DNA of 35,496 nucleotides, from the IMG/VR virus record IMGVR_UViG_3300044846_002198, positions 1 through 35,496 of that record. The stretch is one strand, 5' to 3'. Source of the DNA: a virus. A program made the translations under genes and the position numbers. Below the pieces are notes generated by a model that was not told the origin of the DNA, did no database searches, and saw only the letters and a list, made by a program, of their open reading frames with translations. The first letter of the stretch is position 1. Every line of letters starts with the position of its first letter. Positions 916 through 35,496 of the stretch are shown here, in pieces.

Positions 916-1161
916 TCAAGCGGAAACGGCCATTGCGTGCGTTTTCTGACTGTCCGATTGCCCGGTGAAGGTCTGGGTAGCCATCGGATGCCGATCGCCC
1001 CGCAAATCGCGTTCTTTGGCGAGGAGCTCTTCGATGTGCTTGAGGCGCGCCATCACCTCCTCTTGCCGCTCCTTGCAATGGCGGATGACGCGGGAGAGGG
1101 TCGCGTGCTCGGTTAGGAGGTGCATTGCGGTGTTGTCGAGGCGTTGGATCGTGTCGTTCAT
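916..1161 (-). CDS. Small coiled-coil hypothetical protein (81 aa)
   Basis: ATG start at the edge of the GGAGACT repeat array; the nearest repeat (1164-1170) ends up 3 bases before the start codon, where a ribosome binding site would normally be. Residues 1-55 look like a charged amphipathic helix with a heptad-like pattern, and the C-terminal 25 residues are polar and probably disordered. Family not recognised. The repeat next to its start codon suggests that whatever binds the array could also control this gene. Confidence 0.6.
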   Translation of the reverse strand: MNDTIQRLDNTAMHLLTEHATLSRVIRHCKERQEEVMARLKHIEELLAKERDLRGDRHPMATQTFTGQSDSQKTHAMAVSA

Positions 1162-1163
1162 TG

Positions 1164-1292
1164 GGAGACTAGGTTGAGGTTTCTTTCGCGGGATGTGTCT
1201 CCTATTCCCCCCCTATATATATAGGGGGGGATGGAGACTTGGAGATATAGTCGCAGGGAGACTTAAAGGAGACTACTGGGAGACTGGAGACT
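1164..1292. repeat. GGAGACT iteron-like array, candidate origin or operator
   Basis: Six exact copies of GGAGACT in the same orientation on the + strand start at 1164, 1233, 1257, 1268, 1279 and 1286. A degenerate copy (GGAGATA) lies at 1241 and an inverted near-copy at 1196-1202. Copies at 1257, 1268 and 1279 are spaced exactly 11 bp, about one helical turn. The array surrounds a perfect 26-bp palindrome and runs into the 3' end of the primase-helicase gene. Replication origins with iterons next to the replication protein gene are established in plasmids and phages; here that role is inferred. Confidence 0.6.
1206..1231. repeat. Perfect 26-bp palindrome, T-C7-(TA)5-G7-A
   Basis: Every base pairs with its partner across the centre: seven C, ten alternating T/A, seven G, flanked by a T/A pair. 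The GC arms and easily melted AT core could form a cruciform in DNA or a strong hairpin in RNA. No U-tract follows on either strand, so it is not a classical intrinsic terminator. It sits in the only sizeable gap of the early region, inside the GGAGACT array. Confidence 0.7.
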
Positions 1293-3297
1293 TAGCCAAA
1301 GAATAAGCCCCAAACTCGCGGTTGATGATGCCTTTCCTTTGCATCTCGGTAATCCATTTGCCGACCGTACCGCGGACTGGAACGTGCCCCGGCGTGCTGC
1401 GGGCCTCGGTGATCTCGTTGTGCAGCTGCCGCCAGTCCTTCCGCTCGCCTGGCCGAAGGACCGACTCGGCAAGCTCGCGAAACTCCGCGGTCTTGCGGTC
1501 CTCCTGCGCTACGTTGGCGACGGTGACGTGCATCCGAGCATCGTCCGACCAGCGGAACCGCGGGCCGTTCTTCTTCTCAATCGGCGCGCGGCGCTGCTTG
1601 TTCGACCAGACAACCGTGATGTCGTCCTCCTTGTCGAGCGATAGGTTCGTTTCGGCCTTGCGCTCAATCTGGCTGCCGAGGTGGCCGCGCACCTTGTCGG
1701 TGCCTGGGTTCTTGTGAATAACGCAGAGGATCGCGCACTCGTAGCGAATCGCGAGCGCGTGAAGCTCGGCGACTAACTGATTGCACTCCTCGGAATCGTT
1801 AACGTCGAGCGTTAAGTCCGCGACGCCGTCTATGATGACCGAGTGCAGGCCGCCGTGGCTTTCGGCAGCGTCAGCCATTGCAACAGCCAGCACGCGCTTG
1901 CCTACGTGAGCGGGAAGGTCGGCGATGCTTGCGGCGTGCAGCCAAGGCGGAATCTCCTCGATCCGCGCGCGGCGCTTGGCGCGGTTGACCGCGTGCCAGA
2001 AGTCATCCGGCGATTGCTCGGTGTCGACGTAAAGCAGTCCCTTGCCGTGCTCATTGAAGCCGCGAGCGGTCAGCGTGTCGGCGTCCTCGTAGTCGCGCAC
2101 CATCGCAGACGCGACGAACGCCGAGACCAGCGCCGACTTGCCGACCTTGGCTTGCGCCGTGATGGCGGTGAGGTTCCCGGGAGTGCAAATGGTGACGCCT
2201 CCGAGCTCGTAAATCGTCCTGAGCGGCGGCGGCTCCTTGGTCGGGTCGAACGTGCGCGCTTTCCAGAGCCGGCGGAGCTTGTCGGTCTCCGTCTCGGTGG
2301 TGGGCGCGGCCTGCATCGGATCCTTGCCCTGCGGCGTGGCCTGCGCCGTCGTGAGCATCGTGCTGGCCTTGATCGCCCGCCGGCCGAAGCCCTGCTTCTG
2401 AAGCTCACGCGCGGCCGCGGAGAAATCTCCGTTGCACTCAAGCAGCGCATAAACGTGCCACGGCTTATAAACCCGCTCCGACTCAAAGCGGGTCGAGGTC
2501 GAGAAGACAAAGAAGCGCCCAGGGATCTGGTCCCAGCTGGCCGAGATGCCCGAGTCTTTGCCCGGTCGCGTCCAGTAACGCGCCGCGTCACCAATCGACT
2601 TCCACCCGTGACGGCGCAAGAGGCTCGGCAAGTCCGCGCGGGCATCGTAGTCGTCTCCCGGCGAGACGTCGAAGCCCTGCGGCGGCTTGGCCGCGATCTG
2701 CGGCACCTCCACCTCGCGCGGGCGCACCTCTTGGAACGAGCGAGCGAGATTTAGGAGCGCCTCGCGATCATCCGCGGAGATCAGTGGGATCGACGTCCAG
2801 TCGCCCTGCTCCAGCGTGTAGCCGGCAGAAGGCGCGATGACGAAGTAGCCTCCGGCGCCGCGCGTCTCGATCATCACAAACTCCTGCACGTCTGAGTTCG
2901 CGGCCTTCTCGGCGTCAGTCGGCGGGCGCGAGGCGAGCTTCTCGTTGCCGAGCGGCGGGCCGTCGCAGCGGAAGACAAGGTGAAAGCCGCCGTTCTTGGT
3001 GCGCTGGCGAACGACGTCGCCTAGGATAAAGTCGAGCCCGAGCTCCTCAGCGCGCTTGGCAAAGCGGCTCAGGATGCCCTGCGCGTACTTCTCGTCGAAG
3101 TCGATGGCTTGAATCGAGCCGGCCACGAGCGCCAGCGCGGAGTCGGTCTTGCCGAACCACGACGCAAGCTCCTGCTCGGTCGGAAGCTCGGTCATAAAGC
3201 GCTTCCAAGGGACCAGCGGGCGCTTGTCCTCCTTGACCGGGATCGTGGCGATGCCCTGCGCGCGGAGCGCCTTGGCGAGCGTAAGTTGCGTGGTCAT
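1273..3297 (-). CDS. Primase-polymerase / RecA-type helicase fusion (674 aa)
   Basis: Probable replication initiator and helicase. Residues 1-200 look like a bifunctional primase-polymerase (archaeo-eukaryotic primase) domain, with acidic motif I-D-F-D at 65-68 (D66, D68), catalytic-type G-F-H-L at 104-107 and conserved G-G-Y-F-V-I-A-P-S at 149-157. Residues 360-570 are a RecA-like ATPase of the RepA/AAA_25 type, with Walker A A-K-V-G-K-S (383-388) and Walker B V-I-I-D (487-490). Residues about 595-665 look like a winged helix, probably DNA-binding. The ATG overlaps the HNH gene stop as ATGA. The stop lies inside the GGAGACT array. The fusion would let one protein bind, unwind and prime the origin; that role is inferred from domains and position. 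Confidence 0.9.
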   Translation of the reverse strand: MTTQLTLAKALRAQGIATIPVKEDKRPLVPWKRFMTELPTEQELASWFGKTDSALALVAGSIQAIDFDEKYAQGILSRFAKRAEELGLDFILGDVVRQRTKNGGFHLVFRCDGPPLGNEKLASRPPTDAEKAANSDVQEFVMIETRGAGGYFVIAPSAGYTLEQGDWTSIPLISADDREALLNLARSFQEVRPREVEVPQIAAKPPQGFDVSPGDDYDARADLPSLLRRHGWKSIGDAARYWTRPGKDSGISASWDQIPGRFFVFSTSTRFESERVYKPWHVYALLECNGDFSAAARELQKQGFGRRAIKASTMLTTAQATPQGKDPMQAAPTTETETDKLRRLWKARTFDPTKEPPPLRTIYELGGVTICTPGNLTAITAQAKVGKSALVSAFVASAMVRDYEDADTLTARGFNEHGKGLLYVDTEQSPDDFWHAVNRAKRRARIEEIPPWLHAASIADLPAHVGKRVLAVAMADAAESHGGLHSVIIDGVADLTLDVNDSEECNQLVAELHALAIRYECAILCVIHKNPGTDKVRGHLGSQIERKAETNLSLDKEDDITVVWSNKQRRAPIEKKNGPRFRWSDDARMHVTVANVAQEDRKTAEFRELAESVLRPGERKDWRQLHNEITEARSTPGHVPVRGTVGKWITEMQRKGIINREFGAYSLAKSPVSQ

Positions 3298-35484: not shown

Positions 35485-35496
35485 GGTATTGCAACC
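35485..35496. repeat. Terminal direct repeat, right copy (possible cos end)
   Basis: Second copy of the 12-base terminal repeat, identical to positions 1-12. A small inverted repeat, CAAAAC TGG GTTTTG (35464-35478), lies just inside it and could be part of a terminase recognition region. That last point is speculative. Confidence 0.6.

Follow-up and report, generated by a model that had tools for sequence, protein, structure and literature searches.

The origins of SaPIs and PICIs lie immediately 3′ of the Rep gene and consist of short iterons that flank an AT-rich core; recognition has been attributed to the C-terminal domain of the primase/helicase initiator (PMC6092414, PMC7581432). pRN1 requires a stem-loop 3′ of orf904, which encodes a Prim-Pol/SF3/winged-helix protein, and the same arrangement is present in phage BIP-1 (PMC4234260). 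In P4, a single protein, alpha, unites primase and helicase with a winged helix at its C terminus, which binds repeats of the origin (PMC4234260), and proteins in which an AEP primase is joined to a RepA-type ATPase and a winged helix are described in mobile elements (PMC5862659). Here we compare with these systems a block of repeats at positions 1164–1292 of a 35,496-base virus record (the whole stretch analyzed, hereafter the window). From comparison of the window with related loci, we judge, with a probability of about 0.85, that this block is a phage replication origin recognized by the protein whose gene precedes it.

The genes identified in the window all run leftward on the minus strand and include those for the portal and the large terminase; the window is thus not a SaPI/PICI element, that is, a satellite without structural genes of its own. 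Its first and last 12 bases (1–12 and 35485–35496) are identical (GGTATTGCAACC). The contig of a relative, L015, terminates at a matching GGTTGCAAGACC, and L009 continues across that junction (about 2315–2330) into terminase genes. The shared ends are likely a cos site with 12-base cohesive ends, and the window therefore looks like a complete linear genome.

The putative replication initiator gene (1273–3297, minus strand) encodes a 674-aa protein with an N-terminal Prim-Pol (AEP) domain, a RecA/SF4-type helicase, and a C-terminal winged helix. It matches Prim-Pol (4.9e-13) and AAA_25 (PF13481 ATPase; 1.7e-12) in Pfam and DNA polymerase/primase (1.5e-49) in PHROG; known phages offer just distant Prim-Pol or helicase matches, and PDB sequence searches found no relative. 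Structure comparison assigns the helicase half to the RecA fold, with DnaB nearest (Z 20.7), and its match to the RSF1010 RepA structure 1g8y (Z 18.8, rmsd 2.6, 214 residues) is a likeness at the level of fold only, because DnaB and RAD51 score alike. The last 80 residues (1276–1515, minus strand) are modeled by AlphaFold2 (pLDDT 85.9) as a winged helix (three helices, one beta hairpin) in which residues 48–60 of the model, RGTVGKWITEMQR, form the predicted recognition helix. Structure matches of this model (Foldseek, VIA) are generic winged-helix proteins only, including TubR at a generic level (Z 7.1); neither P4 alpha nor RepC is among the matches listed, which is silent on their relation to the domain.

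The block contains six exact copies of GGAGACT on the plus strand, starting at 1164, 1233, 1257, 1268, 1279, and 1286; in the direction of the gene the motif reads AGTCTCC. Followed in that direction, the block opens with four direct copies in steps of 7, 11, and 11 bp. The first two stand head to tail at 1279–1292, 7 bp apart, and double as the terminal codons of the initiator (C-terminus KSPVSQ), the third (1268–1274) overlaps its stop codon, and the fourth lies at 1257–1263. There follow a degenerate inverted copy (1249–1255, minus strand; AGTCGCA on the plus strand), with an inverted copy in the same place in L006, L117, and L126, then a degenerate direct copy, GGAGATA (1241–1247, plus strand), and an exact direct copy (1233–1239, plus strand) that adjoins a palindrome. 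Beyond the palindrome, an inverted copy (1196–1202, minus strand; TGTCTCC on the plus strand) pairs with 1233–1239, extending the hairpin, and is present at this position in all close relatives. One more direct GGAGACT (1164–1170, plus strand), a distal copy also found in L005, L006, L117, and L118, lies 2 bases upstream of the start codon of the next small open reading frame (916–1161, minus strand).

This anatomy confirms what a sequence-only reading had described: six exact copies with an inverted and a degenerate one around a 26-bp palindrome, reaching into the end of the primase-helicase gene. Its claim of helical phasing stands for the copies at 1257, 1268, and 1279, which are exactly 11 bp apart, but fails for the fourth clustered copy at 1286; since 1279 and 1286 are separated by 7 bp, phasing at roughly one turn of the helix is confined to three copies. 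The concentration of the motif in the block, on which that reading depended, is borne out by the whole record. Ranked by clustering, GGAGACT comes first among the 7-mers of the window. Counting both strands, it occurs 11 times, whereas dinucleotide shuffles predict 4.1 (11 was reached in 1 of 100); the five copies outside the block (5212, 9185, 11548, 12808, and 19773) are each isolated, so the motif is not spread over the genome. GC skew has no clear turn at the block and is uninformative.

The perfect 26-bp palindrome TCCCCCCCTATATATATAGGGGGGGA (1206–1231) reads T, seven C, five TA, seven G, A, and its core TATATATATA, held between the C and G runs, is predicted to act as an AT melting core or as a hairpin. 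Its arm of 13 bp compares with a maximum of 9 across 300 shuffles of the region; the longest arms measure 10–13 bp in 10 of 13 loci and 7–9 bp in L119, L120, and L126. As single-stranded DNA the window block folds with z = -4.55, the flanking inverted iterons lengthening the stem (the folding results leave out L126, where the segment cut the hairpin short, and L127, where it missed the hairpin). Across loci, the palindrome keeps its position among the iterons, while its stem varies in sequence and retains pairing: when eight loci are aligned on the palindrome centers, stem positions 1–5 are paired in all of them, and positions 1, 4, and 5 are found both as C-G and as G-C, a pattern of compensatory changes.

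Close relatives of the initiator were found at eight IMG/VR loci (74–99% identity), and in all eight the block follows directly on the 3′ side of the gene, with different DNA beyond it; the array is thus conserved alongside the same primase, as an origin beside its initiator would lead one to expect. In L007, the gene has already ended when the block begins: an extra partial array intervenes, the block is displaced by 131 bp, and none of it codes for the primase. Because this non-coding block is nonetheless more alike the window's (88% identical) than is the primase gene (71%), it is the DNA that is conserved and not a protein tail. The motif itself changes. AGTCTCA replaces AGTCTCC in the first four copies of L005, L006, L008, and L010; in L117, L118, and L119 (67–69% identity), which a search with the helicase/winged-helix half retrieved, the iteron is ACCCTCA, arranged in the same order at almost identical spacing, and the TATATATA palindrome that it surrounds has a different GC stem; and in the more distant viral locus L120 (41% identity) it is ACCCCGT, in fewer copies. 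A related Prim-Pol gene is present in an Opitutales MAG, and a search of 388 genomes from its phylum recovered initiator relatives in three: L126, which has ACCCCGA at exactly 7/11/11, inverted copies, and a GGCCCCTATATGTAGGGGCC palindrome, and L127 and L128, which have looser arrays of GGGGAA and GGGAAA, respectively. These relatives suggest, if indirectly, that phages carrying the SF4-type initiator probably infect Verrucomicrobiota. Among related primase/helicases in Bacteroidota plasmid records, the block was not found, which counts against the origin reading. Separately, L007 (6009–6103) and L119 (3981–4060) have a second, partial iteron array after the primase stop codon and ahead of the main array, which suggests that the block was duplicated.

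What persists under these changes is a layout: direct copies at 7/11/11, an inverted copy, a pair of copies, a GC-clamped TATATATA palindrome, and an inverted copy, occupied by AGTCTCC, AGTCTCA, ACCCTCA, or ACCCCGA, and by ACCCCGT or GGGGAA in the looser versions. When all 1000 triples of steps from 6 to 15 were scored over nine loci, 7/11/11 came out best (203; runner-up 182). Eight loci reach a perfect spacing score of 24/24, which none of 200 dinucleotide shuffles attained; L119 scores 23/24, and the fit is poorer in L117, L120, L127, and L128.

The winged helix and the iteron array vary jointly across relatives. The residues of the predicted recognition helix are TVGKWI with AGTCTCC, TVARWI or TTARWI with AGTCTCA, and TVERWI with ACCCTCA, and L004, whose array mixes C- and A-type copies, has AVGKWI. 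Between L004 and L005, identity is 96% in Prim-Pol, 94% in the helicase, and 96% in the small terminase, yet it falls to 47% in the winged helix; the L004 winged helix is nearer to that of the window (65%), and the L004 array is altered relative to that of L005. Independent iteron switches are few, and the winged helix and the array, being neighbors, could travel together by linkage alone.

AGTCTC arrays occur elsewhere in 73 viral stretches, against 14 for a reversed control motif. We rejected them as homologs of the block, since many belong to Clostridioides difficile phages or consist of simple tandem repeats of 11 bp that lack a palindrome, and likewise ACCCTCA arrays elsewhere, which are mostly simple repeats. 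With so many arrays lacking a palindrome, a phased array alone is not diagnostic; the combination of array, palindrome, and adjacent initiator is. Three similar-looking loci were set aside because no initiator relative was detected there. L051 (4862–4900) and L012 (10023–10050), both GC-rich viral contigs, have GTCTC arrays followed by a palindrome; in L050 (10285–10312), a phased AGTCTCA array begins 2 bases past the stop codon of a gene for a DUF5906 helicase-primase with no detected similarity to the initiator and is possibly another 3′ origin. In L014 (4655–5153) and L016 (5475–6102), phage loci without a detectable initiator relative, 43–47 copies of AGTCTCC, mostly in 10- to 11-bp steps, extend over 0.5–0.6 kb upstream of terminase-like genes. 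Finally, in C. difficile phages such as phiCD27 and phiCD418 (L020, 744–782; L033, 2659–2697; and other loci), four 11-bp-phased GAGACT copies directly follow a gene for a RinA-like activator and precede the terminase genes, making these arrays candidate binding sites for a late activator.

The C. difficile arrangement raises the possibility that the block serves as an operator array through which a transcription regulator controls the packaging operon downstream, and in relatives the block likewise precedes terminase genes. We nevertheless think this improbable: the C. difficile motif is oppositely oriented to the genes and has no palindrome, no promoter-like site was found near the block (although the promoters of the host may differ), the motif goes with the winged helix of the primase, and it is the pairing of the palindrome that is kept rather than its sequence. 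The same neighborhood could be taken to indicate a packaging site (cosB or pac type) to which the small terminase binds, given that roughly 1.2 kb separates the block from the end of the record that is likely a cos end, and that in relatives the block is upstream of terminase genes. Small terminases have HTH domains, which counts in favor of this idea. They do not track the motif, however: the arrays of L004 and L005 differ despite their nearly identical small terminases, whereas the window and L007 share a motif with presumed small terminases that are about 22% identical (that of the window being assigned by position only), and the block stays with the primase gene. A packaging site seems even less probable than an operator.

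Two further explanations look to the end of the primase gene and to the winged helix itself. The block lies at a gene end and its palindrome folds strongly, as would a transcription terminator or an RNA hairpin ending the primase transcript, yet neither a T-tract nor a terminator-like call was found at the palindrome, the block has no match in Rfam, and the conserved iteron layout and the copies beyond the hairpin would be left unexplained; we give such an element very little credence. Least probable of all is a partition centromere with TubR- or ParR-type sites in a plasmid-like prophage. Winged-helix proteins read iterons in partition systems too, and TubR is among the fold matches, if only at the generic level noted above, but here the reader is fused to a primase and a helicase, and the neighboring genes that were examined include no recognized partition ATPase or GTPase.

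The reading of the block as a replication origin, which the sequence-only reading had put forward as a candidate and which the relatives clearly favor, is preferred because the block is kept 3′ of the gene and because the motif changes as a set, within a constant layout, along with the winged helix. We posit that the C-terminal winged helix binds the 7-bp iterons and gathers several copies from either side of the palindrome, and that the AT core of the palindrome then melts or is extruded as a hairpin. The SF4 helicase domain would load onto the opened strands, and the Prim-Pol domain would synthesize the first primer. Such a mechanism would resemble that of the SaPI/PICI and pRN1 origins, which have experimental support, except that the helicase is of the SF4 type.

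A bolder proposal, to which we assign somewhat less than an even chance, is that the block represents a distinct class of origin, in which one Prim-Pol/SF4-helicase/winged-helix protein fires a hairpin-centered iteron origin and phages swap specificity through a cassette of winged helix plus array, with the 7/11/11 spacing fixed. If so, exchangeable cassettes would perhaps give rise to incompatibility groups. In the open-licence literature, where absence is weak evidence, we found no described SF4-type origin of such composition, no fixed geometry with exchangeable iterons, and no described origin for Verrucomicrobiota phages. The loci form a natural series of at least four 7-bp specificities in one geometry with co-varying winged helices, making initiator-origin recognition testable residue by base, and they would carry over to phages whose helicase is of the SF4 type the plan known from SaPIs and pRN1, an origin directly 3′ of a Prim-Pol initiator.

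As in SaPIs and PICIs, the block, in the window and in relatives, overlaps and follows the initiator stop codon, and its iterons flank an AT core, TATATATATA, if unequally, with several on one side and two on the other. However, the SaPI Rep helicase is of the DUF927 or D5/Primase_Cterm kind, whereas the helicase here matches only AAA_25 in Pfam and has a RecA/SF4 fold; the AT core here is a GC-clamped palindrome, and the carrier is a phage with structural genes rather than a satellite. With pRN1 and ORF904 the locus shares a Prim-Pol, a helicase, and a C-terminal winged helix, as well as a structure-conserved stem-loop 3′ of the gene, but there the helicase belongs to SF3, and the stem-loop is about 100 nt long with a large loop and no iterons, in contrast to the SF4-type fold and the compact palindrome amid iterons here. 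P4 alpha likewise unites primase, helicase, and C-terminal winged helix in one protein, although its primase is of the Toprim type and not a Prim-Pol (AEP). The mobile-element fusions surveyed in PMC5862659 have the same order of domain kinds as the initiator, in a survey that covers proteins rather than origin layout. RSF1010 oriV (IncQ) offers an AEP primase, a RepA-like hexameric-helicase fold, an iteron reader, and iterons with nearby hairpin priming sites (PMC4234260, PMC4538821); there, RepA, RepB′, and RepC are separate proteins acting with two ssi hairpins, whereas the window has one fused protein and one palindrome. As part of the tentative distinct-class proposal, and with the same slightly-below-even confidence, the initiator may in effect be RepB′, RepA, and RepC of RSF1010 in one chain.
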